The notes under the pieces: generated by a model
What the model was told of the DNA's origin: nothing
Database searches by the model: none
Seen by the model: the letters and a program-made list of their open reading frames with translations, nothing else
Position numbers and translations under genes: made by a program
From: Coptis chinensis
Lineage: Eukaryota > Streptophyta > Magnoliopsida > Ranunculales > Ranunculaceae
Direction: 5' to 3'
DNA length: 64,000 bases
NCBI GenBank assembly: GCA_015680905.1
Contig: CM027385.1
Span: 22,574,501 to 22,638,500, forward strand
In this document: positions 9,798 through 57,112 of the stretch, one piece after another
Layout of the letters: each line of letters starts with the position of its first letter
Numbering within the stretch: position 1 is the stretch's first letter

Positions 9798-10440
9798 AGA
9801 TGTAATTTTATTGGAAGTTAGAGTATAAGTTTTAACACAAAATTGATTTTCTTTTCCCTTTGTTATTTTATAACGCGGTTGTCGGAGATCCAGTAGGAGT
9901 AGTGTTTTACTGTGTAACAAGGACTTGACTTGGGAGTGAATTAACTGAAATCAGTGGCTTCTTAGGAGGCCCTTTATTAATGTAAAGAAATGGAAGAGGG
10001 GTATAGAGGGTTGACATGTATATTGGACAAATTTCGCAGATTCATCCACAATGGATTCTTTGGAGGCCTGTACCAGTTAGACATGGACATGGAAGAGCAC
10101 TTCCTGAAGAGGTGAGACTGAGAGGGGTACAGAGGCTTGATAGGGGTATGTTCTCTCCAAAGGATTTGTTTATAGATCTGTTAATGGAAGAAGTTTGGCA
10201 TTTCCCAAGGAAAAGGAAAATGTGGATTACAAGGATGATTATTAGTTATCCAATAAAGCAATAAAAAGTAATTTGCTCCGTGTAAGTCAAAAAAAGGGGC
10301 TCTATCCATCAATGATGCCCTCAACATTCTCCAGAAAGAATGAGTGGTGCAATAAAGAATACTGTATGCCTCTATTGGTATCTCCATTAGTCCTAAGTGG
10401 GTTTTCAGGTGCTAGTCCCTTTTGGGTGTTCTAGCTACAC

Positions 10441-10447
10441 TATAAAA
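10441..10447 (+). promoter_or_regulatory. TATA box of DIR1-like copy A
   Basis: TATAAAA lies 40 bp upstream of the ATG at 10487. The same CACTATAAAACCA context is kept in copy B at 43823-43829, so the promoter was part of the duplicated unit. Confidence 0.65.
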
Positions 10448-10486
10448 CCAGGTCTGGGAGGGGACATGTTCATCAAAGAGCAGAAA

Positions 10487-10954
10487 ATGCAATCTTCAAT
10501 GAAGTACATTTGCATTCTGGGGCTTCTTGTGATTATAGGCTTTGTTGGTATGGAAAGGGCTGATGGAGCAGGGGAATGTGGAAAAGCGTCTCCAAATAAC
10601 GTGGCCTTGAAACTGGCTCCTTGTGCAAGTGCAGCACAAGATGCCAATGCTGCAGTTTCTGATGGTTGTTGTTCTCAGATTAAAAAATTTGGCCAGAACC
10701 CTAGTTGTCTCTGTGCAGCTATGCTGGTCTAATACTGCTAAAATGTCTGGAGTTTATCCAACAATTGCTGTTACCTTCCCAAGCGGTGCAACCTGGCTAG
10801 TCGTTCTGTGGGAATGAAGTGCGGAGGTGAGGGTCCTTTTATACTGTATTTTTCTTTTATTCTAGTGCTGAGTTCCTTTAGATGGACTCCTTTCATTTTC
10901 TAATCCTCAAAGCTTTACAACTGTGCTTGGTTTGCAGATTATACATTGCCTTGA
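10487..10954 (+). pseudogene. DIR1-like lipid-transfer protein pseudogene, copy A
   Basis: The family binds lipids in the apoplast through an eight-cysteine fold; DIR1 acts in systemic acquired resistance. From ATG 10487 there is a hydrophobic signal peptide (about residues 1-29), then CGKASPNN, LAPCASAAQ, SDGCCSQIKK and PSCLCAAML, giving six of eight cysteines. A one-base insertion after ATGCTG then gives a stop at 10730. The next segment (SNTAKMSGVYP, AVTFP) is in another frame, and a one-base deletion near 10781 shifts it again before CNLASRSVGMKCG. Exon 1 ends at 10826; an intron 10827-10937 (GTGAGG...TTTGCAG) leads to a tiny exon coding YTLP and a stop at 10954, as in the family. Two frameshifts make it a pseudogene. 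Copy B lies at 43869-55464. Confidence 0.9.
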
Positions 10955-11067
10955 AGGAATACCAGAAGAACAATAATTGATCGAAGACCGTGGACTGAAC
11001 AGAATACTTGTCTGTCATCACTGGTGCAGTGATATGTATGTTATCTGCCTAGTATTATTGTGTAGCC

Positions 11068-11073
11068 AATAAA
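11068..11073 (+). promoter_or_regulatory. Polyadenylation signal of DIR1-like copy A
   Basis: AATAAA within CCAATAAAAGCCAGC, about 115 bp after the stop. The same context occurs 3' of copy B near 55571. Confidence 0.6.
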
Positions 11074-11089
11074 AGCCAGCTGTGGCTTC

Positions 11090-11748
11090 TGTCTTATGAT
11101 TTGCTCAGTGTTTGTTCTGTTTGGATAATTTTAAATTAAATATCGTCTACTGTTTGTATTTTCCTATTACTCACTTCCTACTAAACACTGATACACAAAT
11201 CTGGTGAGCACTGGACAACAAAGTTCTTGAGCTAATATTGATAAATGGCTATAACACCGCAGTGCTCGAAACTAAATCTCATAATCATTGACTTTACGAA
11301 CTTAAACAGTAAAAAGAATAAAAATCAAATTGTGAACATCATAACATTCAACCACCTGTTCTAGATCTATCTTTTGTGGTTGTTTCAAAGTCACTATGCT
11401 TGTTTTGTATGCTTTTACGCGATAGGAGTTTTTAATAAATGTAATTGTTGTTGCAGACTTGCAATGAGATGTAGTGTGAGTCACATTTTATTGGATGTTA
11501 GTTTTATTATTTATGTGTGTAGTTTACTTTAATTGTGGTTTTTATGAGTGTTGTGCACTTGTGTATAAGTAGGAATTGAATTAGGGGAATTGAAATTTTA
11601 GTATGATTTTAGATATATATTGTTAAGGTAGATTGTAATGTGGTCTAATTTTATTATCAATTCTTTGGTAGTATTGCTAGTTTAGGTTGATTGCTTAAGA
11701 ATTCTGAAAATTGTGGTGATCGAGTTGTGTATGAATGTCATAACTTAT
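11090..11748. other. No recognisable gene; DIR1 3' flank
   Basis: AT-rich. The part 11100-11260 aligns with the 3' flank of copy B and provides the empty sites for the Helitron at 55669-55854 and the hAT element at 55923-57112. Beyond that nothing is recognised. Confidence 0.6.
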
Positions 11749-12210
11749 AAAGCGCTATGAATATCATTGTTAAGTTGCTGATTGTATCAGAAGATTTTAC
11801 TGACTAGGATTAACGCTCCATTCTGTTTAGAAGCTTGAAAGCATAATCACGAGGTTATAGGTATTTGTTTTTTTTTCCGATAATAAGTTTATAGGTATTT
11901 GTTAAACTAGAAAAAGTAGGCGGATAGCTTAAAACAGTTAAACTTGATTGGTAGTGAATATGCGAGTTCGTGATGAGCCAGAAGTTTCTATGCAAGTAAA
12001 GCGCCATGAATTTCCCTATTAAATCACTGATTGTATCAGAAGGTTTTACTGACTAGGATTGTTTGCTCCGTTCTGTTTAGAACCTTGAAAGCATAATCAT
12101 GAGTTTATAGGTATTCGTTAACCTATAAAAAGTAGGCAGATAGCTGAAAACAATTAAACTTGATTGGTATTGAATACACGAGTTCGTGATGAGCCAGAAA
12201 TGGTGTGATG
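11749..12210 (+). repeat. Diverged tandem duplication, ~249-bp period
   Basis: The segment starting AAAGCGCTATGAAT near 11750 recurs near 11999 as AAAGCGCCATGAAT. CTGATTGTATCAGAAG at 11778 and 12027 and GAGTTCGTGATGAGCCAGAA at the far ends confirm the alignment. The copies differ by several substitutions and small indels, so this duplication is older than the 219-bp one that follows. Confidence 0.85.
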
Positions 12211-12587
12211 GAATAGGGAAATAGCTTTTAAAAGTGTTCAGGGAGTGGATAATCAGTATATTGATTATCTAATAGGCTCAACAGTAACAGAGTTTCCTAA
12301 TAAATTCTTCATAAATAGAGATTTTTGGAATTAATTTCCTAGGAGAATTAGTGCAATTGTGGAGGCTTTTATGAAAAGATCCTCGAGCCAGACGTCAATC
12401 TTTTGTATGATACAGTTGGAAGTTCACTTTCCTGATATAGCTGGAAAGTTAGACGGGCATTCTGAATAAGGAAGTTATCTTGTTCTGCTTGCTTGGTTAC
12501 AGTTTTTGAGAACAAAGATGCCAGCTGAAGATACTGGTTTATATCCATTTGGTGAATCAATGGAAGATGTTATGATGTGTCGCAGGA
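12211..12587. other. Block shared with 42970-43310
   Basis: Contains text homologous to sequence just upstream of DIR1-like copy B (TTCCTGATATAGCTGG, CTTGTTCTGCTTGCT, GGTTTATATCCA). It also contains a diverged version (12365-12415) of the start of the 219-bp unit that follows. No protein family recognised. Confidence 0.6.
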
Positions 12588-13025
12588 GAGTTAGTGCAAT
12601 TTGTGGTGCCTTTTATGAGTAGCTCATCGAGCCAGACGTCAATCATTTGTATGATACTGTTAGAAATTCAATTTTAGGGTTAGGGCTTTTGAGGAATGAA
12701 CTTTCGTTTTTCATTGGTATTGTTAGATGTGTTGTTGTAAGTTGTAAACTTTGCAATGAGATGTTTTCTTCTTTGGAAGTAATGTGAATTACGTTTGAGT
12801 TGATTAGAGTTAGTGCAGTTTGTGGTGCCTTTTATGAGTAGCTCATCGAGCCAGACGTCAATCATTTGTATGATACTGTTAGAAATTCAATTTTAGGGTT
12901 AGGGCTTTTGAGGAAGGAACTTTCGTTTTTCATTGGTATTGTTAGATGTGTTGTTGTAAGTTGTAAACTTTGCAATGAGATGTTTTCTTCTTTGGAAGTA
13001 ATGTGAATTACATTTGAGTTGATTG
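12588..13025 (+). repeat. 219-bp recent tandem duplication, two units
   Basis: Unit 1 is 12588-12806 and unit 2 is 12807-13025, nearly identical (GAATGAAC versus GAAGGAAC, ACGTTTGAG versus ACATTTGAG). Each contains GAGCCAGACGTCAATCATTT and CAATTTTAGGGTTAGGGC. Confidence 0.92.
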
Positions 13026-39706: not shown

Positions 39707-40300
39707 GTTACGCTGCGGTCCCTTGTGCATTAAGTGTACTAGCCTTGAGCTGTTGAGCACGAGGCTCCCACGTAGTTGTCTCTGATGGTCTCTCTCATCT
39801 TTGATGTTTAAAATTTAGGGTTTTTTTAGACATATCATAATTGGGAATTAGACATACCCCCACTCTAATTTTCTTTAGACACTAGCCATTTGCCCTGGCC
39901 TATGGCCGGACTTGCTACATAGATAGCTAATGACTCAAAAGCCTAAAGCCTACTTGAATAAATAATATATGTATATTGATAGCTAATGATTCATTGCTTA
40001 TAATATATGTATAGTTTGTTTGAAGGGTTTATGTTTTTCTAAGTTTTTTTGAAGGGGTTTTGTTTCTAGTTGGATACTAGTTTTGGGCTCTATTGGAAGT
40101 GGATTTTGAATTGGACACGTGTAAAGAGAATATTTACAGCTTTACTTGAGGGCTTGGATGTAGTGCATCAGGTTCCATAAGGAGTTAAGCAGGTTATGAG
40201 TCTGTGGTGCCTGTTAAATGCTCATGCATATCTGAACATAACCACATATTTTCATTGTTAATTGCTTCAGAAACGAAAATATATTTGGAATTCAGGGAGT
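39707..40300 (+). repeat. ~590-bp direct repeat, left copy (flanks the copia-type element)
   Basis: GTTACGCTGC to TTCAGGGAGT, repeated at 42377-42965 with roughly ten substitutions and one 5-bp deletion. The copia-type element lies exactly between the two copies. Confidence 0.9.
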
Positions 40301-42376: not shown

Positions 42377-42965
42377 GTTACGCTGCAGTCCCTTGTGTAT
42401 TAAGTGTACTAGCCTTAAGCTGTTGAGCACGAGGCTCCCACGTAGTTGTCTCTGATGGTCTCTCTCATCTTTGATGTTTAAAATTTAGGGTTTTTTTAGA
42501 CATATCATAATTGGGAATTAGACATACCCCCACTCTAATTTTCTTTAGACACTAGCCATTTGCCCTGGCCTATGGCCGGACTTGCTACATAGATAGCTAA
42601 TGACTCAAAAGCCTAAAGCCTACTTGAATAAATAATATATGTATATTGATAGCTAATGATTCATTGCTTATAATATATGTATAGTTTGTTTGAAGGGTTT
42701 ATGTTTTTCTAATTTTTTTTGAAGGGGTTTCTAGTTGGATACTAGTTTTGGGCTCTATTGGAAGTGGATTTTGAATTGGACATGTGTAAAGAGAATATTT
42801 ACAGCTTTACTTGAGGGCTTGGATGTAGTGCATCTAGTTCCATAAGGAGTTAAGCAGGCTATGAGTCTGTGGTGCTTGTTAAATGCTCATGCATATCTGA
42901 ACATAACCACATATTTTCATTGTTAATTGCTTCAGAAACGAAAATATATTTGGAATTCAGGGAGT
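42377..42965 (+). repeat. ~590-bp direct repeat, right copy
   Basis: Second copy of 39707-40300. After GGAGT it continues into the block upstream of DIR1-like copy B, so the right side is probably the original context. Confidence 0.9.
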
Positions 42966-43822
42966 CCTTTCCTGATGGAGCATGGTAAACGGATTTGTAA
43001 AACAGGGTTGCCTATCATGATTGTTGAGTAGGGAGAGGGATGGGTCTCAGCAGTGATCAGTTTCCTTAACGAAGTTTTCTTAAATGGAAATATTTACATG
43101 ATGAGGGAGAATTAGTGTAAGTCGTAATGATACAATCATACATTTAGAAGTTTGCTTTTCCTGATGTTGCCACTTTAAATGGTCAGGAGATTGCTGGATG
43201 GTTAGAGAGGTATTTTTGATAAATAGTTTTGTTCTGCTTGCTCGGTTATGCATGGTTCCTGAGAAGTGACATCTTGCTTATGGTTTATATCCAATATGTG
43301 GAACACGATCAATCAACTGAAAAATCTGAAAACATAATTTATATGCGTTACAGGGAGTGACTTGGGGAGGAATTGAACTGAGTTCAATGGCTTATTTGGA
43401 GGCGCTCTATAGATATAAATAGATGGAAGAGGGTATAGAACTTTAAGTTTTATATATTTTCTTGGATGGATTAGATCTTTGATATGTATAAAGTTTTTTG
43501 GATAAGCTGTGCAAGCTGGATTCTTTGGAGGACGCCCTTTATACAATTACATTTGAAGATGGAAGACCGATTGCTTTAAAGGTGAGAAGGGTTAGAGCAT
43601 TGATCTGTTTATATTCCGTCTTAGTTTCCCTCTGCTAACAGAAAATATTTGGCATTTCTGAAGAAGGAAAATGTTGATGACAAGGATGAGCTTTGCATTA
43701 CTTACTTCTTCCAATGGATTCTAAAGTGGTGCAATAAACAATACTGTACGCCTCTAGTGGTATTATCAATTATGCCTGAGTGGGTCTAAGGTGCTATCAC
43801 TTTTTTGTTGTTCAGGGTACAC
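42966..43822. other. Duplicated upstream region of DIR1-like copy B
   Basis: 42970-43310 is homologous to 12365-12560. 43350-43822 is homologous to 9900-10440 upstream of copy A (e.g. GGATTCTTTGGAGG, ATTTGGCATTTC, AATACTGTA.GCCTCTA). No protein identified. Together with copy A this shows a segmental duplication of the locus. Confidence 0.75.
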
Positions 43823-43829
43823 TATAAAA
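43823..43829 (+). promoter_or_regulatory. TATA box of DIR1-like copy B
   Basis: TATAAAA in the same CACTATAAAACCA context as in copy A, 40 bp before the ATG at 43869. Confidence 0.6.
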
Positions 43830-43956
43830 CCATGTGTTAGGGAGAGATTGTTCATCAAAGCACATAAAATGGAATCTTCGATGAAGTACATTTGTAGGGG
43901 ATTCTTTGGAGGGTTAAGTAGTATTATCCAAGGCCCAAAATATCGAATTGGGTGAA

Positions 43957-44308
43957 TGTTGTGTGTTACTCACCCTGTCCCCTCAATTCTCTTTTCCTTT
44001 CTCCTCACTCTCTAGGTTTCTTCCAATTAGTCCGCCCCCTCTTCTCTCTCCTCCATTGTTCCTTTTATATCCCCCTAACTCCATCCTGGCCGTCCACCTC
44101 ATTTCCCATCCTGCGCTTCTCCATCCGTCCACGTGTAGGGTTTCTTCCACTCACACCCATCCGTGGTCTGATACTATACACCCAATTCTTTCTCCTACCC
44201 CGCATCGGGCTACCATGGTATATATCCCCTACTCTGTGGTCGTCCCCCATATAGTGCATCGAGCACGATATCCCTAGATTATGTCTCCTGTGAGTAACCA
44301 CCGCTACA
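43957..44308 (-). repeat. Tat element LTR (3' LTR in element sense)
   Basis: 352 bp, TG...CA. On the plus strand it is pyrimidine-rich, with CCACGTGTAGGG in the middle. Confidence 0.95.
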
Positions 44309-44825
44309 GATGCCCCTTTTCGATGCCGCTGCCACTTGTTGGCCGGGGGTCGAGAATACTCTCCTCCCTATCTCCGCAGTACCCCGCGGCCCCTTTCCTG
44401 ACTCACCATCGATCTGTGTGCACTGTAATGATCACCCATCACGCGCATCTTTTCGCTGCCCCTTCGTATTCCGGGCCTCCATGTGTCACCCATTTCTGCT
44501 GGTCCACTTGTCGACTCCTCGATTTCTTACCCTTGGGATATTACTTATTTGCCCCCCTCCTTGTTTAAAGTCCCGCTCATTCTTTCTTCTCCACCACTCT
44601 AGCATTTCACTTTTCTCTCTCTTCTCACTCTTGCTCCAGAGTCTCCTCCTCCCCCTTCGCTTTTGCCTCTCCGGTGGTTGCTCCGACCCTTCCCTCCCCT
44701 ATTGGAAGGCAGATTTAGGTTTGTCACCTCTTCCTTCTTGTTGGTTTAGAGTTTTATTTCCTCATTCCTCCCTTTTTCGAGCAACTGTTTGCATCTTTTT
44801 CAAATCTGTTCATCTTCTCCGCCCG

Positions 44826-47064
44826 ATGTCAGCGTCCACATCCGGGGGCTTTTCGCCTTCCCGATATACGGAGGTGGCCTCTCCACCTCCGGTGACCGCT
44901 GCGGCGGTCCCATCCACCTCAGGAAGGGTTCTAATTCCCCTGCCGCCCCATCCTCGTAGTTGCCGACCTTATCTGCCTGCGATTAGGGCAGCTTATGGAA
45001 TCCCTACTGACATCACCATAGAACACGTGCCCTCTATCACTCACTATCCACACTTGGTACCCCAGAGACCGGGATCTCTTGTAGTCACTGTGGGTCCAAT
45101 AGTTACTAGTCTGTGGCTTCCTCTTAATTTGTTGGATGTCGAGGTGTGTAATCACTTCAACATCCCTCCTTGCCAAGGTATCGGCAATTTCTGGCGGCTG
45201 ATGTATGCCGCGAACTATTACAATAGATCCGATGACCCGAAACTGACTTGCCGCGATATAGTCTCCCAGTACTTCCTCAAAACAAGTACTAAGGACATAA
45301 GTGTGGGATACCAGTCCTTTTGTGTCCGCCCTCAAAAGCAAACTTTTGTACTCCACGTCACTAGCCCCGATAAACAGTGGCACCACTATCCACTGCTTGT
45401 GTCAGGGAATTTCTTACCCGCGGATCTACCCTCCGGGCTGACACTTAACCATCTTGTCTTCCTAACCAGTGGTGAGTTTCCCTATAGCCTCGGTCTTTCT
45501 TTATTTCCGATCTGCCCCACTAATGGTTTTCTGCTGGTGTTTCTTTGCAGGTTGGCGGTCTGACTCCAAGTCCCGCTTATATTCAGGCACAATCTGCCCC
45601 GTCTTTGCAAGGCTCTGCAACCTAGGATCCGCTTAGGCCGAACTTTTAAACATCCATCCCACCACTGGCACTCCTCTGCTGGAGACTCCCCTGTTCCAAC
45701 ACATCGCTGGTCTTTCTGCTCCCTTTTTTCGCCTGCCGTCTCCCAAGGAACAGCGACCCCGAGCCTCCCTTCCTCCCAAGAAACAGTCCCACTCTTACTC
45801 TCACAGCCACCGAACTACCCGAGATTCCTCTCCCTCTTCCACTGTTCCTTCGTCCGGTGTCCCCCTTCCTCCCTTGGCTCCAGAACCTTTACCTTCCTTT
45901 AGATCTATTTCTTCCAGGGAAGACCAATATTCCCCTCCATTTTCTCCCTCTGCAAATATGGACCTTTCCAAATTTAAGTTGTTCGATAGTGATGATGATG
46001 AAGTGACAGAAGTTTCTCCTTCTGCAGTGGCCGTTCCTACCGATGGGCCGCCCCCAGTAAGTGACAAAGGACCACGGTGTTTGAGGAAACAACCCCCACT
46101 ATCCGGGTAGCGGAAGATGAAGCCCCCTCGACCCACGTCCGCAGGCCGGGCAAGGAGACCACTCCTCCACCTGGCCCAGAGGACACCCCCGCTAAGTTCG
46201 CTCCCAAGTTCAAGGTGCACCACCACAAGGTCACCGTTGTGGACTCGGCTCTTGAGAACCCCGCTGTGGCTTCCTCCATCTTCTACGGCTCCCACCTGCC
46301 AAAAGACATGGCCTATGCCGAAGGAGGCACCTTCGAGCACCACCGCACCTCCATGTATACCAATTGGGAAAATGTACTCTCTCTTTCTTCTGCTCCTATC
46401 CTTTCTTCCTTCATCCCTGACTTAGTCGGTCTTGTTGTACTTAGGTGAGTTTGGATATTTCGTTCATGATCCGCGGTCTGTTCAGCGCGTGGTCAAAGGT
46501 AGACTCCCTGGACAAAGAAGTAAGCGGCCTTGACGGCTTGAGGGCGACTTGCGCTCGTCTTCAGCGCGAGCTAGAAGCCGCGGACCTAGCCAAAAGCCGG
46601 GCCCAAGATGATTTGAGGATGGCAGAGAAAAACCACCAGCTATATATGGACTTCGTCAATGATCGCTTGAGCCAGCAGCGGACTGCTCTCCTCCAGCAAC
46701 ACCAAAATAGTACCACAGCCCTTCTGGACCAACATAAGGCCGACATGGATGCCCCTCAAACCCATTTCAGGTTATTGGCTGACAAGAGGGTGGCCCACAA
46801 AATCTAGGAAGAGTATGCGAGGCTTACCAAGGAGGGCCGCCTCCTTCCTGAGGAGCCCCCTACCATTGCTGGGGACTCCGCTGAGATGCACACTAAAGAT
46901 ACCCCTGCATGACTGGCTGAAGTGGAAAAGTTTGCGATGGAGAGGCTGAGGAAGTGGAGGCCGCAGAAGATATGGTCACCGAAGCTGCTGACCCTGCCGC
47001 AGAGGATACCGGTGCCGAGGATCCTGCCTCTACTTCCCAAGGGTCACCTTTGGAGTCCCTCTAA
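44826..47064 (+). pseudogene. Additional spliced ORF of the Tat element, antisense to gag-pol
   Basis: ATG 44826 (MSASTSGGFSPSRYTEV). Exon 1 ends at 45471; it has a globular part with HYPHLVPQRPGSLVVTV, LDVEVCNHFNIPPCQGIG and FCVRPQKQTFVLHV. The intron 45472-45550 (GTGAGT...TTTGCAG) joins in phase to GWRSDSKSRLY, which stays open to about 46075 except one TAG near 45632. This part is Ser/Pro-rich, then acidic (LFDSDDDEVTEV). After a frameshift near 46080, IFYGSHLPKDMAYAEGG ends in NWEN at a second intron, 46374-46444 (GTACTC...CTTAG). Exon 3 starts VSLDISFMIRGLFSAWSKVD and becomes a coiled coil (LQRELEAADLAKSRAQDDL). Stops at 46805 and 46909 and a frameshift near 46950 precede an acidic tail ending at 47064. 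Such antisense additional ORFs are described for Tat elements; function is unknown. Confidence 0.75.
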
Positions 47065-47354
47065 ATTTGTCACTACGAACTCTGCACCTTTACTATGTTT
47101 TTTATTTGTTTGATCATTGTCTGTTTTGTATAACTCTAGTTTCCTCCTCCTATAAGGAGATTTAATGTTTTGTTGTGATGCTACTACCGATGTAATACGG
47201 ATATATTGTATGCTTTCTTCTCCCCTGTTATGTTTAATTATGTCTTTTGTCGTCTCTGGTCTGGTTCAACCGTCGGTGACCCTCTTTTGGTATCCGTTAC
47301 TTCGTTTTTTTATATGCTTTCTCTCCCCTAGCCAGCTCCTCCGGCCAATTTTTC
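47065..47354. other. Tat 3' region between the antisense ORF and the tandem array
   Basis: T-rich on the plus strand, e.g. ATGTTTTTTATTTGTTTGAT after the antisense stop, a plausible 3' UTR for that ORF. No other feature. Confidence 0.45.
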
Positions 47355-48000
47355 CTCCCGCACACTACCCCCGCTGTCTCCCAGAGGCTGCCGAGCCCGC
47401 TAGGTACTGCGTTGCCCCTAAGTTTGATTCGGGCGCGACGTCCGCGAAGGGATCTCCCCCTGCTGTCTCTCGAAGGCTGATGAGCCTGCTTGGGCACCGC
47501 CTTGCCCCAAGTTTGATTCAGACAGGATGTCTGCGAAGGGATCTCCCCCCGCTGTCTCTCTTAGGCTGATGAGCCTGTTGGGGCACTGCCTTGCCCCAAG
47601 TTTGATTCGGACGCGATGTCCGCGAAGGGATCTCCTCCCCGCTGTATTTTGGAGGTTGATGAGCCTGTTGGGGCACTGTCTTGCCCCAAGTTTGATTCGG
47701 ACGTGATGTCCGCGAAGAGATCTCCCCCCCGCTGTCTCTCGGAGGCTGATGAGCCTGTTGGGGCACCGCCTTGCCCCAAGTTTGATTCGGACGTGATGTC
47801 CGCGAAGGGATCTCCCCCCCACTGTCTCTCTTAGGTTGATGAGCCTGTTGGGGCACTGCCTTGCCCCAAGTTTGATTCGGACGTAATGTCCGCGAAGGGA
47901 TCTCCCCCCCGATGTCTCTCGAAGGTCGATGAGCTGCTTTGGGCACCTTTTGCCCCAAGTTTGATTCAAACGTGATGTCCGTGAAGGGATATTGTGCAAA
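47355..48000. repeat. Tandem array in Tat 3' region, seven ~89-90-bp units
   Basis: The GCGAAGGGATCTCCCCC landmark recurs at 47444, 47533, 47622, 47712, 47802, 47892 and (as GTGAAGGG) 47981, i.e. periods of 89 or 90. Each unit also has TGCCCCAAGTTTGATTC and CTGTCTCTC. GC-rich against its surroundings. The array yields repetitive open frames on both strands, which I regard as artefacts of the repeat. Confidence 0.95.
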
Positions 48001-48038
48001 CAACCTAAGTCCTTTTTGTCCAGGACAAGTAGTACACT

Positions 48039-49262
48039 TCAAATATAAAACTTTTTCAACATTCTTACATTCCAAGGTCTCTCAATCAGCTTTCTTTCCA
48101 TGGTCTGGAATTTATACATGCCAGCCCTTCCGACCTCCACCACGATGTAGGGCCCTTCCCAGTTCGGCCCCAGTTTCCCATCGCTTGCTTTCTTGGTGCT
48201 TGGCGTCACCCTGCGCAACACCAAATCCCCCTCTTGGAACTTCCGCGGCCTCAATCGCTTGTTGTATTATCTTTGAAAGCGTCGGTGATATTCCTCTAGT
48301 CTGATCCGCGCGGCCTCTCTCCTCTCCTCTGCCAAGTTTAAGTCTCTCGCCATTATGCCCCAGTTCAAACCTTTCTCCACGGCCATAGTACGGGTCATGG
48401 ACGCCACCATCTCTGAAGGGATCACGGCTTCAATGCCGTATGCTAACGAGAACGGAGTTTCCCCTGTTGAAGTCCGCGGTGTGGTTCGATAGGCCCAAAG
48501 CACCTTGCTCAACTCGTCGGCCCACGCCCCTTTTCTATCTTCTAACTTTCTCTTGAGGTTGTTCATTATGGTCTTGTTAGATGACTCGGCCTGTCCATTT
48601 CCCTCAGGGTTGTAAGGAGGCTGTTTCACGCGGTATGCCTGTAAGAACTCTTTCACCTTCGATCCCGTGAACTGTGTCCCATTATCTGCTATGATGGAAT
48701 GAGGTAATCCGAAGCGGCATATGATTTTTTCCCATAATAATTTAATCACTTGCTCCTCCTTGACTTGCTGCAGTGCCACTGCCTCTATCCATTTGGTAAA
48801 ATAATCAGTGGTGGCGAGCATGAACCTTCTCTTCCCACTGGCCATTGGTAACGGACCCACAATGTCCATGGCCCACATAACAAATGGTCATGGACTGGAC
48901 AGGTTGTGCAGTGGCTCTGCTGGAGCGAATATTAACTGGGAGAATCTCTGATATTTTCCACACCTCTTTGCGAACTCCACTGCGTCCCTTTTCATATGAG
49001 GCAAGAAGTACCCTTGTGTTATCAACCGATGAGCTGTTGTCCTTCCTGCGGAGTGACTTTCGTAGTCCCCGTCATGTATCTCTGCCAAAACCTCCTGTGC
49101 CCGGGCCGGCCCCAGACACCTCAACAGCGGTCCATCAAAATTCTTTCGATACATCTCTCCCTCTATTACAGTGTACCTACGCGATGTCTGCTCCCACCTT
49201 CTCCGTTCTTTGGGATCGCTTATCTCCCCTCCCGACAGAAAATGCTTGATGGGGTCCATCCA
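48039..49262 (-). pseudogene. Tat integrase (zinc domain, catalytic core, C-terminal domain)
   Basis: Integrase joins element cDNA to host DNA. The N-terminal zinc domain has EIHDGDYESH and KRCGKYQRF, so the second Cys of the usual CxxC is Tyr. The core has the first Asp in WAMDIVGPLP, the second in IIADNGTQF and Glu in NGQAESSNK. The C-terminal part reads FQEGDLVLRRV, LGPNWEGPYIV and RPWNVRMLKKFY. Stops occur at 48888 (TGA where the family has Trp, SSP*PF) and at 48267 (FQR*YN), both without loss of frame, plus the stop at 49284 just upstream. The nonsense changes look like point mutations after insertion. Confidence 0.93.
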
Positions 49263-49283
49263 TCCTCCTGTATCTTCTGCGGT

Positions 49284-49790
49284 CTAGTGCACCTTGTCCC
49301 CCTTCTCAATACTGGGTCTCTCCAGTTTCCTTACTCTTATGGTTCTCTCCTCGGATCCGGGCATAGCCGCTGCCACATAGGCTAGGGCGTCTGCATGCCT
49401 ATTCTCCCCGCGACCTAGATGTATGAACTGGATCTGTTTAAACTTCGCCACTCTCTCATGCACCACCTTCAAGTACCTCGACATTCGGTCGCACCTAGCC
49501 ACAAATCCCCCATTCGCCTGACATACCACCAAATTGGAGTCGGAGTACACAATCAACTCGGTCACCCCCAGATCCTCTGCCATCCCTAACCCTGCTAACA
49601 CGGCCTCATATTCTAACTCATTGTTGGTTGCTGCGGCTTCATAAACAGCTCGATCCTATCGTAATCCGGCGTAACCAATACCACCCCCACTTTGTTGCTC
49701 ATGTCAGTGGCCGATCCGTCTGCAAACACTCTCCACCCGTTCCTCTTATCCCATGGATCTAACATGTTTGCTTCACTCTCACATTCGGGC
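49284..49790 (-). pseudogene. Tat second (archaeal-type) RNase H domain
   Basis: Begins with WRVFADGSATD (first catalytic Asp), then VGVVLVTPD. After a frame change near 49650 come [18 protein letters not shown] (catalytic Glu), [16 protein letters not shown] (Asp) and ENRHADALA (Asp). This order is the additional RNase H found in Tat-lineage Ty3/gypsy elements, proposed to cut polypurine RNA. A TAG stop at 49284 separates it from the integrase in the same frame. Confidence 0.9.
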
Positions 49791-49799
49791 TCCATAACC

Positions 49800-50074
49800 A
49801 GTTCCTCTCCCCACGTAGGATCCTCAGTTGGGAACTCGGCCACGACCTGTGCCTTTTCCGCAGTCCTTATCTGATACTGTACTTCATAAGCACTTAGCAT
49901 CACGGCCCATTTCAGCATCCTTCCAGATTTTTTTGTTTTCAGTGCTTGCTTTAGAGGAACATTTGTTACTACCACCACCGAATGTGCCTCAAAGTACGGC
50001 TTCAACTTCAGTGCCGAGAATATCAACGCCAATGTGTTTTTCTCCACCCTACTATACCTTGTCTTCACGTTCAA
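49800..50074 (-). pseudogene. Tat first RNase H domain (retrotransposon type)
   Basis: Continues the RT frame after one TAG at 50075. KTRYSRVEKNTLALIFSALK, LKPYFEAHSVVVVTNVPLKQ and GRMLKWAVMLSAYEVQYQ are the standard RNase H blocks following a Ty3/gypsy RT, ending near QVVAEF. Apart from the upstream stop this stretch is open. Confidence 0.88.
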
Positions 50075-51324
50075 CTAAGTTTTACTCTGGAAGTACACTG
50101 ACTTTTCTACCTTGTCGACCACTCGGACGAGGACCGAACTGACCGCGTACTCTGTAACTCCCAAGTATAGGTATAACTTCTCCCCCGGTTCTGGCCGAGA
50201 CAGTAGGGGCGCCTTGCCCAAATAACCTTTCAGTTCTTGAAATGCTTCCTCGCACTCGGCAGTCCAAGTGAAATCCGACATTTTCCTCAGCAGCCTATAC
50301 AGCGGTCTACACTTGTCTGATGATTTCGAAATGAACCTATTTAGTGTCGTGACCCTCCCAGCCAACCGCTGCACTTCCTTAACATTCTGCGGTGAGGGCA
50401 TCTTTACCAGTGCCCGTATTTGCTCAGGGTTGGCCTCTATCCCTCGGTGAGTCACAATGTATCCCAGGAATTTCCTAGTGGTCACCCCAAAGGTGCACTT
50501 CTCCTGGTTAAGCTTCAGATTGTGCATCCGCAGTATTCTAAATGTCTTTCTCAGTCCCTCTATGTGTTTCTCCTCTGACATGCTCTTCTCCACCATGTCA
50601 TCTATGTATATCTTAATCCCCCTCCGAATCTTGCTCTCGAACATTTTCTCTCCCAGCCTCTGTAAGGTGGCTCCGGCGTTCTTCAACCCGAACGACATCC
50701 TTGTATAACAATAGGTTCCTCCTTCCACTATGAACGCCGTCTTCTCCTGATCGGATCCATACATCACAACTTGGTTGTATCCCATGGACGCGTCCATGAA
50801 GGAGAAAATCTTGAATCCCGCCATTCTGTCCACCAACTCATCCACCCTTGGCATGAGATAACTATCTTTAGGGCACACCGCATTGACATCCGTGAAGTCG
50901 ACACACATGCGGACCTTTCCATTCTTCTTAGGCACTGCAACTATGTTCGATAACCATTCCGCGAACTCAACTTCCCGTATTATCCCAGCTTCCCTCAACG
51001 TTGCAACCTCTTCACGGATTCCTTCCGCATACTTCGGTCTAACCCCTCTCATCTTTTGCCTCACAGGCTTCACATCCTCCCTCATGTGCAAGTAGTGGCA
51101 TGCGAACTCTGGGTCCAGTCTGGTGATGTCTTCGATCGTCCAAGCAAAGACATCTTTATTTTCAGGTAGAAACATTATCAGCTTATTTTTCCACTCTTCC
51201 GGCAAGCTTGATCCTATTGACGTGAACTTCTCTTCCTCTCCCATCCCCACATTCACGATCTCAATCTCGTCCAAAGTCTTGGGTACCGTCGTCGACTCTC
51301 TGTCCCCCTCCATTGGGCGCACTG
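50075..51324 (-). pseudogene. Tat reverse transcriptase
   Basis: RNA-dependent DNA polymerase of the element. About 415 open codons. Blocks: EWLSNIVAVPKKNGKVRMCV, DFTDVNAVCPKDSYLMPRVD, FSFMDASMGYNQV (first catalytic Asp), MSFGLKNAGATLQRL, the YIDDM box at 50597-50608 with its Asp pair, then FLGYIVTHRGIEANPEQI and the connection region with AECEEAFQELKGYLG. CPKDS and FTDVN wording is that of the Tat group. The frame begins without an ATG as part of a polyprotein and is separated from protease by a frameshift near 51330. Confidence 0.95.
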
Positions 51325-51330
51325 TAATTG

Positions 51331-51990
51331 CTATGCCTGCCTCTTTCTTGGATTTGAGGTCTCTCCTTCATCTCCGCGGATCATCCTCTTCACCGTCCCC
51401 TGATGGCTATTCCTTGCCATCACCTGGTCACTGCGGACCTCATACATTCCCGACGGGGTGGGGAACCGGATCACCTGGTAGTAGGTGGAAGGCACTGCCT
51501 TCATCTCGTGAATCCACCGCCTTCCTAGGATGGTGTTGTACTGTGACCGGGCGTCCACCACCTTGAACCGAGAAAACACTGTCACCGGACCAGTGGTTAT
51601 AGGGGAGCAAGAGCTCTCCCAAAGGCTCGGTCATACTCCCGTTGAACTCGTACAAGTTTGTCTGCGATGGTCGCAACTGTTTCCTGTCGATCTTCATCTC
51701 CTCCATTGTCCCCCGGAACAACAAGTCCACGACACTACCACAATCCACCAACACTCTTTTCACCATGTAATTGCCCATTGCAACAGTGATCACCAGTGCG
51801 TCCTCATGCGGGTAGTCAACCGCCTTCAAGTCCGCATCAGTAAACACAATGCTTCCCCGCTCTGTTATCGACCGTGGAACAAGCCGTGACTGTCCTGATG
51901 TCTCATTAACTTGTTGTATGCTCGCAGTTCGCCTTATCCTATCCCGATGAGCATTATGACTCAAAATCTTACCGCTAAAAATGATGTTGA
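51331..51990 (-). pseudogene. Tat protease region
   Basis: Retroviral-type aspartic protease: VKRVLVDCGSVVDLLF holds the active-site Asp (codon near 51745; family D-G/T-G/S is D-C-G-S here). After a frameshift near 51600 it continues with VVDARSQYNTILGRRWIHEM and AVPSTYYQVIRFPTP, the conserved protease C-terminal block. The two halves lie in different frames, so the protein is broken. Confidence 0.9.
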
Positions 51991-54151
51991 TCGTCCCCAG
52001 TATCCTCCCCTGGTTGGGCTCCAGCTCCTCCTTCCCTTTTCCCCCGATGAACTCCTTCAATAAACCCCTCCCTATCATTCTCTGTACCTGCCACTTGAGC
52101 GCGTAGCATTCATTTGTCTCATGATTCTGCACCTGACGGTATGCGCAATAAGGTTTCCCTGGTATCTCGTCTAGCTTGTTGCGCGGACCTTCGTACCCCG
52201 GCATACTTCGAATCAGCGACAATATTTCACTCCAAGGCTAGTTCACTGGTGTCTGTTCTGTGTCCCGGTGCGGTTTTCTCTCTCTATATTCCTTTCTCCC
52301 CTCGCTTCTCTCCCTTTCGGGCTGCGCATAGTATCCTGATAACCCGTAAAAATAATAGAATCCAAAATATTAATGTTAACAACACTAATAAGTAATCCTA
52401 CCGTTCTTACGTTTAAATCAATTCTTCTTACTCTCAAAACATAATCATGCAATATAATGAGTAAGGATTCGTTCCACTCTTAACTCTCTAGACTTTAATT
52501 GAATTCAACTAATCAAACCAAAAGGAACAATGGTGAGAGTAATGATTTGATGTGAAATTTCTATACTACCATTCCCAACATAAGAACAAGACATAATTAA
52601 ATTAAACTAAAATTAAAACTAATTTAGAACTAAGATTGTGAATAACTAATTATGAATTTAAGACAACTAAATCCAAATACGAATTTAAGCAATAATCTAA
52701 ATTGAAATGAAGAACTAATACTTTATTCTAAAAACTAAATATGATTCTAAACTAACTAATTGAATGAATGTAAAAAAAACTAGATCTAGATCTAAAAACT
52801 AATCTAGATCTATCTTTTTCTAACCCTAAACTCCATTAACATTAGCTTCCTAACCTAACTGCCATTAACAAAGAGTCAAGCTTTTATTTTTATACTTTCA
52901 GATCCAAAAATCGTGCATGGGCTTGGAGCCATATTTTGGGCCGGAAAATCAGGCCCAAAACCCAATTTCTTTAGTCCAAAATGGGCTCTTTAGCTGTAGT
53001 TGGCTTTGATAGATGTTTCGTCCACTTCTGCTCCTTTGATTGGGCCAAAACTTGGACCATTGGAAAGCTCTTTTCAAGCCGGTTGTTTTGACATAAGGTA
53101 GGCCCAATTCCGAGGTCTGAGTCCAAAGATATGGTCTTCAGAAGTTCTGCTGACTTTGTGCACTGTTTCTGCCTGCGTGGACTTTGACTTTTCAGCTTTT
53201 GACCGGGCATTACAAAGGCTTTCTCTTCTTGAAAATTGGCCTTTAATCACAGAACTCATTAGCAATCGACCTTTGCTCCATTATCTCGCTAAAGTGGCAC
53301 ATTTCTGCACATAATGGACTTTGAAGCCTGAAATGCATAAAAACACGTAATCAATATTAACTTTTACTTATTATTCACATAATTGGTCTAAAAGTACGAT
53401 TGTTAAGGGGTTAAAACTACAGTTTTGGGCTCTTATCATATCCCTGATTCCCACCGCTTCCTTTGTTTGACGCCTCTAATCGTTCACGGTCTTCACTCCT
53501 CTCCAATGATAACACGGTTTTACCCGGCCTTTTCGTCTCTTTGTGCATAGTATCTTCGTATCTGATATATTTCTTCACCCTCGGGTACAACTCTTGTAAC
53601 ATCGCGATCTCGTTTTTAGCCACGGACTCATGTACCCTTGTCCCGGGTCGCAGCCCCCTTTCGCAGTTCTCTCATCCAGATTTTCCACCTTCAGGATCTC
53701 CGCTTTGAATCTGCACAAAAAATTCCCTCACCGACTCCGCGGTCCTCTGTCTCACATTGAATAGAGCCGCGATATCCACTACCCACTTTTTCTGGTGTAT
53801 AAAGTGGTCCACGAACACTCCTGACGGGTTGCGGTTCAACCCCGCCACAACCTGATTCGCCGCCCTACCCATGTTTTTAGCCTGCTCTAGATTTGCTTTC
53901 AAGTCACTTGCTATCATTTCCCTCACTTGCTCTCTGGTGAGCCTAGGCGCCCCCTCATCCACCAAATTGTGCCTCCTCTCCTCCCTCAACCTTGTTATCT
54001 CCTCATGCAACAATCTTGTCCCTTCTGACACCGACGCGGTGGTGTCCTCTATGTCTTGCTCTCCCCTATCACTCCTCACCGATTCCCCCTCCTCCTCTGC
54101 AACTGCCACCTTCCTCGGCCTCCCCACTCCTCTCTTTACTTTTGTGGCCAT
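51990..54151 (-). pseudogene. Tat gag, frameshifted and interrupted by a solo LTR
   Basis: Gag packages element RNA. ATG near 54151 (MATKVKRGVGRPRK, a basic AT-hook-like start), acidic stretch, a helix-rich part (TRLREERRHNLVDEG), GLNRNPSGVFVDH and AESVREFFVQ. After a one-base shift near 53700 it reads EILKVENLDERTAK, ELYPRVKKYIRYEDTM and ends at 53444 where the solo LTR begins. Beyond that LTR it resumes at 52336 and includes CAYRQVQNHETNEC, a modified zinc-knuckle-like C/H/C pattern, before merging into protease. Both the shift and the insertion abolish function. Confidence 0.85.
52337..53438. mobile_element. Nest layer 4: 1,102-bp solo LTR inserted in Tat gag
   Basis: Ends TGATAACCCG...GGGCTCTTATCA, with TGATAA/TTATCA as short inverted ends. 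The target duplication TATCC is perfect (52332-52336, 53439-53443), and the gag text joins across it. No internal gag-pol, so one LTR remains after recombination. AT-rich, with repeated AGATCTAGATCTA near 52785-52815. Family not assigned; the text GGAACGAATCCTTACTCA near its minus-strand end resembles sequence near 2550. Confidence 0.9.
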
Positions 54152-54180
54152 TCTTCGGTAGCCTATTTCTTTCCCCACAG

Positions 54181-54189
54181 ACGGCGCCA
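54181..54189 (-). promoter_or_regulatory. Primer-binding site of the Tat element
   Basis: On the minus strand TGGCGCCGT follows the LTR after two bases. It is complementary to the 3' end of plant tRNA-Asp (ACGGCGCCA), the primer class used by many Tat and Athila elements. Confidence 0.75.
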
Positions 54190-54191
54190 AA

Positions 54192-54543
54192 TGTTGTGTG
54201 TTACTCACCCTGTCCCCTCAATTCACTTTTCCTTTCTCCTCACTCTCTAGGTTTCTTCCAATTAGTCCGCCCCCTCTTCTCTCTCCTCCACTGTTCCTTT
54301 TATATCCCCCTAGCTCCATCTTGGCCGTCCACCTCATTTCCCATCCTGCGCTTCTCCATCCGTCCACGTGTAGGGTTTCTTCCACTCACACCCATCCGTG
54401 ATTTGATACTGTACACCCAATTCTTTCTCCTACCCCGCATCAGGCTAGCATGGTATATATCCCCTATTCCGTGGTCGTCCCCCATATGGTGCATCGGGCA
54501 CGATATCTCTAGATTATGTCTCCTGCGAGTAACCACCGCTACA
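54192..54543 (-). repeat. Tat element LTR (5' LTR in element sense)
   Basis: 352 bp, same length as its partner at 43957-44308 and about 96% identical by eye. Confidence 0.95.
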
Positions 54544-55014
54544 GTGAATATTTCGATGTACCCAAAAACCGATATATATCATAAATATCAGAGATATCTA
54601 TTTTTTTGTTGACCAGTTAAAATTTTGTTTTGTATGTCTATATATCAAAAATATCGTTGATTATATCGGAAATATCATCAATATATCGGTCAAAGTCAAC
54701 AATATTTGGTCAAAATCAACAATATCGGTCAAAGTCAACAATTTATATCGGATATATCGTATATATCGATCGATATATATCGTCATATCGGAAATTGTGA
54801 TATATATCGAAAAAAAAAGATTCAATATTCGGTTGAGATATATCGAATATTTTCATATCGGTGTACCAAAAAAACAATATATATCAGCAATATATCGGAT
54901 ATATCGGCAATATTTTGGGCATTGGTATTATCCCTAGATTAGCCAATTAGGATTTCTCCCACTAGATGGGAAATTAGGGTCTCCCCCCTAAATACTTTTT
55001 TGGGTGTATTGGGT

Positions 55015-55032
55015 GGGGGGGGGGGGGGGGGG
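55015..55032 (+). repeat. 18-G homopolymer run
   Basis: Uninterrupted run of G in nest layer 1, preceded by GGGTGTATTGGGT and followed by more G-rich text. Confidence 0.9.
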
Positions 55033-55668
55033 ATCTTGTCTAGTGGGGGTAGGTAATACTACACTTAACCCTTCTTTTGATTGTAGGCATTGATGGTATT
55101 GAAAGGGCTAATTGAGTGGGGGAATGTGGAAAAGCGCCCCATACAAAGTGGTCTGGAAACTGGGAGTGCAGCACAAAATGCCAATGCTGCAGTTTCCGAT
55201 GGTTGTTGTTCTCAGATTAAAAGAATTGGCTAGAACTCTAGCTTCCTCTGTGCCGTTATCTTTGCCCAATATTGCGAAAAATGCGAGCTGTCCCCAAAGA
55301 ATTCTTTGTTACCCTTCCCAAGCGGTGCAACCTTGCTAATCGTCCTGTGGGAATGAAGTGTGGAGGTGAGGGTCCTTTTATACCGTAATTTTGTTTTATT
55401 CTAGTTCCGAGTTCCTTTAGATGGACTCTGTTGTGCTTGGTTTGCATCTTACACATTGCCTTGAAGGAGTACCGGAAGACAAATAATTGAAGGCCATGGG
55501 CTGGACATAATACTTGTCTATCATCTCTGGCGTAGTGATATCTATGTTGTCTACCTAGTGTTATTGCGTAGCCAATAAAAGCCAGCAATGGCTTCTGTCT
55601 TTCGATCGATTTGCAAACATCTGAATGTTGTTTGTATTTCCTCAGTGTTTGTTCTGTTTGGAGAATTA

Positions 55669-55854
55669 TCTTTAATATATAGAAAAACGAGTGGTCGAGT
55701 GAATAGTGGATGCGTGTGGACGTAGGGGCATTTTGGTCATTTCACATTATTTATTTATTTTAACTTTTGAGGGGTAAAATAGTAATTTAACGTTTATAAG
55801 CTTTAAAAAAAAATTCTATGGATCCCACGTGGGTACCACGTGCACAGTAGCTAG
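55669..55854 (+). mobile_element. 186-bp non-autonomous Helitron
   Basis: Starts TCTTTAATATATAG and ends CAGTAGCTAG. Near the 3' end a perfect hairpin ACGTGG-GTA-CCACGT lies about 13 nt before CTAG. It is inserted between A and T, with no duplication. The empty site is visible in copy A near 11130 (GGATAATTTTAAATTAAATATCG against GAGAATTA | TAAACTTAATATCG here). Confidence 0.88.
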
Positions 55855-55922
55855 TAAACTTAATATCGTTTTCTGTTTGTATATTGACTATATTCCTATG
55901 ACTCACTTCTGGTATGCATTGG

Positions 55923-57112
55923 TAGGGGTGATAATTTGGCCCTCAGGCTCTCAACCCGGCCCTAAAAAATGTTTGCAAAAGCCTTCAAAAGCTGGCCCTC
56001 AGATTTGAGGGGCAGGCTAGGGCTTAGGTTATGGAACATGAGCCTGACCCTCATTAGGCCCTCACCAGCCCTCACTTAGAGCATTTGCAATGCAGGTGGA
56101 TAAGGGGGGTTTGTGACTATAGTCACCAGTTTTGTTGAAAAAAGGGTGTGCAATGCAGAGGTGAAAAACTGGTGATTATTTTTCCCTGTTGAAATCAAGG
56201 TGAAACCTTTCACCGAGATAGTGGTTGACTTATTAACTTCGGACGGGATGTTGGATTCCGTCTTGTGTGTTTTTTTCGATTTTTTTTTCGGACGGAATGT
56301 TTCATTCCGTCTCACGTGTTTTTTTTTTTTTTTTTTTTGTTTTTTTTAACTTTAGACAAAATACCGGACGGGATGTTACATTCTGTCTCGATAAAAAAGC
56401 CTCTAGACGGAATCTAACATCCCATCCGAGATTTTTTTTTTTCACCTTTTCATTGCACAACTTCACCTTGCTTTTCATCGTTTTGGTTAAATGAGGGGGA
56501 ATAAGTGTCTACGTGGAGGTGAATAAGGAGGGGATTATTTTGACTTGCATTGCAAATGCTCTTAGCCCTCATAATTTTTGTTGTTGTTTTACATTGCATA
56601 TATGTTTTCTAATTTAATTATCTAGGTTATATCATTTTTTTTTCGCTACAATTAGTATTCAAGAAGGAGTAGCTTATAACATAACATATATATATTTTTT
56701 ATAATTAAATGAAAGAGAGAGATATACGTTATATAAGGACAAAGTTAACATACAATTCTAACGTAGTAATATAGTTCAATATTGAAAGTGTAAGGCTTTC
56801 ATCTCTTCCACCATCTCTATATCTTATTTTCTAAATATATAAAAATAAGTTTTATATCCTTTGTTGAAATTGATATACATAATCAAAAGTATAATAAAAA
56901 AAATTAAAACTACTAAAAAAAAATTAAGTAAATTAGTAGTGTATAATTTGATTGGGCCCGGCCTGGGCCGAGGGGCGGATAAAGGCTTGCGTATTTATGT
57001 CCTGACCCTATTTGACCCAACCCTCAACACACATTAGGAACGGGCTGACTCGGCCCTCAGTCATGAGGGCTTTTATGGTTTGAGGGTCGGGCTAGCCCTT
57101 TTAACACCCCTA
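55923..57112. mobile_element. 1,190-bp non-autonomous hAT element with 8-bp target duplication
   Basis: The left terminus TAGGGGTGATAATTTGGCCC and the right terminus (minus strand) TAGGGGTGTTAAAAGGGCTA are Ac-like hAT ends. Flanks TGCATTGG (55915-55922) and TGCACTGG (57113-57120) are an 8-bp duplication with one mismatch. Subterminal GGCCCTCA/TGAGGGC words are abundant. Copy A lacks the element. No transposase. It contains a MITE at 56079-56561. Confidence 0.9.
56079..56561. mobile_element. 483-bp Harbinger-type MITE nested in the hAT element
   Basis: The termini GAGCATTTGCAATGCAGGTG and (minus strand) GAGCATTTGCAATGCAAGTC are inverted copies; TTA is duplicated at 56076-56078 and 56562-56564. 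TTA target and GAGCATnT.CAA-type ends fit Tourist/Harbinger MITEs. The interior has several GACGGAAT/ATTCCGTC inverted words and a T-rich core. Confidence 0.88.

Follow-up and report, generated by a model that had tools for sequence, protein, structure and literature searches.

Four transposons nested within one another in a DIR1-like lipid-transfer pseudogene of Coptis chinensis

We analysed a window of 64,000 nt of Coptis chinensis DNA (GCA_015680905.1, contig CM027385.1, positions 22,574,501-22,638,500 of the forward strand), in which a DIR1-like lipid-transfer pseudogene is interrupted by a nest of four transposons. Numbering the layers from the outside inward, L4 lies within L3, L3 within L2 and L2 within L1. 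An initial annotation of this DNA had described four layers at these places, each with a readable target duplication, and all four hold: the two sides of the duplications agree at 8/9, 8/8, 5/5 and 5/5 positions from L1 to L4. The two gene copies and the junctions of the three outer layers are given below in window positions.

10466-10951, plus strand: paralog without the nest (the 10487 copy), first exon frame-broken
43344-43901, plus strand: 5′ part of the interrupted DIR1-like pseudogene copy with its upstream flank, placed by block similarity to 9911-10512 (BLASTN and alignment)
43902-43910: left target duplication of L1, 9 bp, TTCTTTGGA
43911-43928: left arm of L1
43921-43928: left duplication of L2, 8 bp, GTATTATC, within the L1 inverted repeat
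43929-43956: left part of L2, hAT-like, without a coding body
43952-43956: left duplication of L3, 5 bp, GTGAA
54544-54548: right duplication of L3, 5 bp, GTGAA
54549-54924: right part of L2
54925-54932: right duplication of L2, 8 bp, GTATTATC
54933-55071: right part of L1, including a run of 18 G from 55015
55072-55080: right target duplication of L1, 9 bp, TTCTTTTGA
55081-55667, plus strand: 3′ part of the interrupted DIR1-like pseudogene copy

The outermost element, L1, measures 157 bp in its two arms and carries GGGTTAAGT at each end, with inverted ends of about 20 bp when small gaps are included. Joining the flanks of L1, we find that the gene aligns through the insertion site with the paralog (GGGGATTCTTTTGATTGTAGGC vs GGGGCTTCTTGTGATTATAGGC). 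The check proposed with the initial annotation, joining flanks at the duplications, thus restored colinearity with that copy. The right 9-bp duplication encodes LLLI, the same residues as in the intact Coptis protein P0122, and the left one has an extra change. Target duplications of about 9 bp together with inverted ends are the rule in the MULE superfamily, and from the length of its duplication and its ends alone L1 would be MULE-like.

L2 amounts to 404 bp in all. Its duplications are identical, and its ends, CAAGGCCCAAAATAT and CAATGCCCAAAATAT, pair as an inverted repeat at 14 of 15 bases. An 8-bp duplication with short inverted ends is the hAT superfamily rule; by these two features alone we class L2 as hAT-like. 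A strict chance test asked for identical flanks of 8 bp and for inverted ends of 15 bp that mismatch at one base at most, 60-15,000 bases from each other, with ends in simple sequence left aside. It found a single site in the window, which is L2, and none in 15 dinucleotide shuffles. Loose scans for flank duplications with inverted ends gave 102 and 31 window matches, many of them simple sequence, and were set aside as too permissive; a relaxed form with 6 matches in the window, vs 10 summed over the 15 shuffles, did not discriminate either. Because these looser tests do not discriminate, L1 rests mainly on the alignment with the paralog.

Within L2 lies L3, a minus-strand Ty3/gypsy element of 10.6 kb (43957-54543), which in turn contains L4. 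Their parts, with LTR for long terminal repeat, are the following.

43957-44308, minus strand: 3′ LTR of L3
44826-45563, plus strand: antisense open frame of L3, 245 codons, between pol and the 3′ LTR, without a Pfam match
47368-47990: array of seven copies of a 90-bp repeat in L3
48267-49283, minus strand: two broken frames that encode the L3 integrase (zinc-binding and core domains)
49284-51367, minus strand: L3 domains in broken frames: reverse transcriptase, the native RNase H and the additional one
51440-52237, minus strand: open frame of L3, by-eye 3′ part of gag and protease region, without a Pfam match
52332-52336: left duplication of L4, 5 bp, TATCC
52337-53438: L4, 1,102 bp, with TGATAA...TTATCA ends
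53439-53443: right duplication of L4, 5 bp, TATCC
53672-54151, minus strand: beginning of the L3 gag region (gag by position), counted from the first ATG interior to the 5′ LTR
54192-54543, minus strand: 5′ LTR of L3, with a candidate primer-binding site (TGGCGCC...) at its inner edge

Read on the minus strand, the Pfam domains of L3 come in the order reverse transcriptase, RT_RNaseH, RVT_3, Integrase_H2C2 and rve, spread over several broken frames. Testing for the additional RNase H, we read the core acidic residues by eye against the expected pattern. Reverse transcriptase, RNase H and RVT_3 follow in the same order in 4/4 relatives, which were chosen from the 120 matches listed because the listing already displayed RVT_3. 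The absence of a chromodomain after the integrase is a non-chromovirus feature; none was found in the two L3 integrase frames scanned, the minus-strand frames beyond 48267 lying outside that scan. According to PMC6317226, Tat stands alone among plant LTR lineages in having two RNase H domains, and Ogre and Retand are recognised by an additional RNase H placed between RNase H and integrase; a dual RNase H is also described in PMC10508981. The second RNase H of L3, between RNase H and integrase, supports its membership in the Tat clade, as the initial annotation had it. One survey of C. chinensis attributes 53% of the Ty3/gypsy elements to Tat (PMC8166882).

Within Tat, L3 resembles the Retand lineage as described in PMC11963269, where the region from pol to the 3′ LTR measures 2,933-6,566 bp and carries an open reading frame of over 600 bp, mostly antisense. 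In L3, 3,958 bases separate the last open integrase frame from the 3′ LTR, and this region holds an antisense open frame above 600 bp and a tandem repeat array. The same source reports antisense TRP28 (PF04195) in 97% of recently active Retand clusters. In contrast, TRP28 was not detected in the antisense frames of L3, where 6/6 plus-strand pieces gave no Pfam family up to E 10, and a homology search with the antisense frame, in which 7,999 candidates were scored, gave nothing at E 0.001. L3 also differs from those Retand elements in being a decayed copy. As TRP28 was not found, we file L3 as Tat and regard Retand as no more than the likely lineage.

The innermost element, L4, has an exact TATCC duplication and TG...CA ends, is without a coding body and reaches at most 91 codons without a stop. 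By this anatomy L4 appears to be a solo LTR, and no superfamily can be assigned to it. Joining its flanks at 45, 60, 75 and 90 bases left one of the three frames free of stops each time, and always the same frame. If L4 is retained, the open frame runs into a stop 24 bases past the L4 border, and the other two frames end already in the flank. We read L4 as an insertion since the frame that is open across the joined flanks is closed inside L4. We discarded the agreement of the outer frames across L4 as an argument: L4 and one duplication make 1,107 bases, a multiple of three, which renders that agreement uninformative. The sequence around L4 would be gag by its place between the 5′ LTR and pol and by our reading by eye. 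The initial annotation had mentioned four superfamilies at this site. That count is not supported, as L4 carries no superfamily and only the ends and duplications place L1 and L2.

We also checked the host gene and its relatives. The 10487 copy had been called unbroken; however, alignment and tblastn show that its first exon changes frame twice. This paralog is a pseudogene, and unbroken solely in the sense of being without transposons. It matches PF00234 at 25.1 bits (cut-off 21.7), and 47/47 candidate relatives match it at E 0.001, one of them named putative lipid-transfer protein DIR1. A plant-type lipid-transfer protein, P0150, is filed under Staphylococcus aureus from a 279-base contig, perhaps through contamination or mislabelling. 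In a PDB sequence search with the gene, six weak lipid-transfer/Ara h 2 matches were returned, the best at E 0.053, and these were not used. The interrupted copy is matched by the proteins P0121, P0122 and P0123 in tblastn and carries further frame lesions; a 40-codon piece of it gave no Pfam match.

We compared five pieces of the interrupted copy with its relatives. Two are nearer P0122 than P0121 (20/21 vs 16/19 residues, and 14/17 vs no match). In another, the two proteins tie at 17/19, with slightly higher bits for P0121, and one favours P0121 (13/16, vs 9/9 over a shorter stretch for P0122). The remaining piece matches neither. Against the 10487 copy, the same five pieces gave 12/16, no match, no match, 19/22 and 14/16. 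Each of the four matching pieces, all of them short, lies nearer, if perhaps only slightly, to an intact Coptis protein than to the 10487 copy. The C. chinensis protein P0160 (IFM89_026641) falls on the window at 10016-10147 (44/44 residues), 10538-10663 (42/42) and 12497-12619 (40/41). These matches by themselves point to Coptis, very probably C. chinensis, as the source of the window. P0160 appears to be a gene model spliced across the 10487 pseudogene and adjoining sequence, from 10016 to 12619.

The above observations are most readily explained by successive and independent transpositions into one decaying gene copy, which we consider highly probable. The MULE-like inverted-repeat element of 157 bp entered the signal-peptide codons of the DIR1-like copy, leaving a 9-bp duplication. 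The hAT-like element entered the inverted repeat of L1 with an 8-bp duplication, and the Tat-clade Ty3/gypsy element followed in minus orientation into the hAT-like element with a 5-bp duplication. Subsequently another LTR retrotransposon would have inserted into the gag region of L3, again with a 5-bp duplication, and recombination between its LTRs presumably deleted its body, leaving the solo LTR L4. The nest passively records insertions into a pseudogene, and no layer has a demonstrated function.

The order in which the elements entered one another is fixed: L2 into L1, L3 into L2 and L4 into L3. The initial annotation held the whole order to be fixed at one site; this stands for the order of entry into one another, but not for the presence of L1 in the gene before L2. 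Nesting alone cannot tell one event from two at the site, and L1 and L2 are both short. A composite of only about 570 bp could have landed with L2 already inside L1, bringing two layers in one event. We think this improbable, since L2 splits the left inverted repeat of L1, which would probably hamper mobility, and there is no second composite copy in the window. If it were true, a split terminal repeat would tolerate transposition. Two separate arrivals, with L1 already in the gene when L2 entered, are likely, and a joint movement of L3 or L4 with the outer layers is unlikely because of their size.

A region rich in repeats, with 18 G in a row inside L1, also invites the suspicion that the assembly misjoined the layers. 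Yet each layer is bracketed by a matched duplication of its own, in proper nesting, and the outer flanks are colinear with the paralog; misjoins would not give such a pattern, and we regard an artefact as very improbable. It is scarcely credible that the nested copy is under selection as a regulatory locus, for example through small-RNA silencing of related genes. The evidence for such a role here does not go beyond a gene family with a DIR1-named member, and against it stand further frame lesions in the host copy, the broken paralog and the several broken frames of L3.

Some observations count against successive independent insertion as set out here. The left duplication of L1 has one mismatch. 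On the plus strand, the 14-mer GGATTCTTTGGAGG is present at three places (10053, 43518 and 43899), upstream of both gene copies, with 43518 lying 381 bp upstream, and spanning the left L1 junction. A small local conversion at that junction is possible because the 14-mer around it recurs upstream and at 10053; a chance recurrence of the 14-mer is possible as well. BLASTN (E 0.001) found no further copy of L1, L2 or L4 in the window, so their membership in repeat families is only presumed. Finally, a Pfam search of four pieces from the two sides of L4 returned no gag family. The solo LTR inside gag of the initial annotation is thus upheld by its place between the 5′ LTR and pol, though not by a gag profile, and our confidence is slightly lower because the gag label comes without a profile match.

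Estimating ages, we compared the two LTRs of L3 (352 bp each). They differ at 15/352 sites, as had been reported, by 13 transitions and 2 transversions, and are 95.7% identical (Kimura two-parameter distance, K2P, 0.044 ± 0.012). In comparison, the two gene copies differ at 97/687 sites, with a K2P of 0.157 that comes from the three longest of six BLASTN blocks and may be understated by the omission of the weaker ones. A rate of 1e-8 has been used for C. chinensis LTRs, and 0.5e-8 as a synonymous rate for demography, according to PMC8172641. L3 would have inserted about 2.2 million years ago at the former rate and about 4.4 million years ago at the latter. The initial annotation saw one dated layer in this divergence; the count of differences is right, but the date hangs on the assumed rate. 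A flood of Gypsy elements in C. chinensis is placed near 1.5 million years in PMC8172641. Eight of the 15 LTR differences, as a raw count, lie in CpG or CHG contexts, and such differences may inflate the age of L3. In an inspection by eye for gene conversion between the LTRs, eleven of the 15 were seen to fall within the first 143 of the 352 bases.

The age order is consistent with the nest, the K2P of the gene copies (0.157) exceeding that of the Tat LTRs (0.044). L1 and L2 are older than L3, and the insertion of L4 and its LTR recombination are younger. Most simply, L1 and L2 are also younger than the split of the gene copies, since the other copy is without them. About one fourth of nested elements exceed the surrounding elements in LTR divergence, as PMC7251063 reports, and because of such inversions the LTR date is less secure than the nesting order.

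Further repeats lie around the interrupted copy. Its 3′ flank holds another hAT-like element at 55923-57112, not among the layers listed in the initial annotation, with ends TAGGGGTG and a duplication TGCATTGG/TGCACTGG that matches at 7/8 positions; it sits where the paralog near 11208 runs on. Within this element lies an inverted-repeat element of about 490 bp (56076-56564) flanked by TTA or by GCCCTCAC/GCCCTCAT, a match of the relaxed kind that also arises in shuffles. A stretch of about 180 bp, with approximate borders at about 55670-55860, is present beside the interrupted copy and missing from the paralog near 11130. Shortly upstream of the interrupted copy, about 570 bases are directly duplicated with 97.9% identity (39730-40300 and 42400-42970). 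Downstream, a 55-bp minisatellite and its relatives form several arrays between 57369 and 63168.

Nesting is routine in plant genomes. PMC4290129 reports 30,199 nested insertions on wheat chromosome 3B, stacked as many as 8 layers deep. As in those nests, the layers here are resolved by element borders, and solo LTRs with target duplications were counted in wheat too. Unlike that chromosome-wide record, ours is one nest of four layers inside a pseudogene, the two outermost being small inverted-repeat elements. In twelve plant genomes, 1,491 nested LTR pairs are reported in PMC6911290, most commonly at the 3′ untranslated region (UTR), the junction of reverse transcriptase and RNase H, the GAG/AP junction and the 5′ UTR. 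The position of L4 in the gag region is not clearly one of the commonest sites given there.

As nesting is established as a relative clock and has been applied genome-wide, the locus opens no long-standing question. It exposes a public Coptis gene model that runs over a neighbouring pseudogene. The nest itself is a clean marker: four junctions in a set order, open to genotyping in species across Coptis, and one layer that LTR divergence can date.

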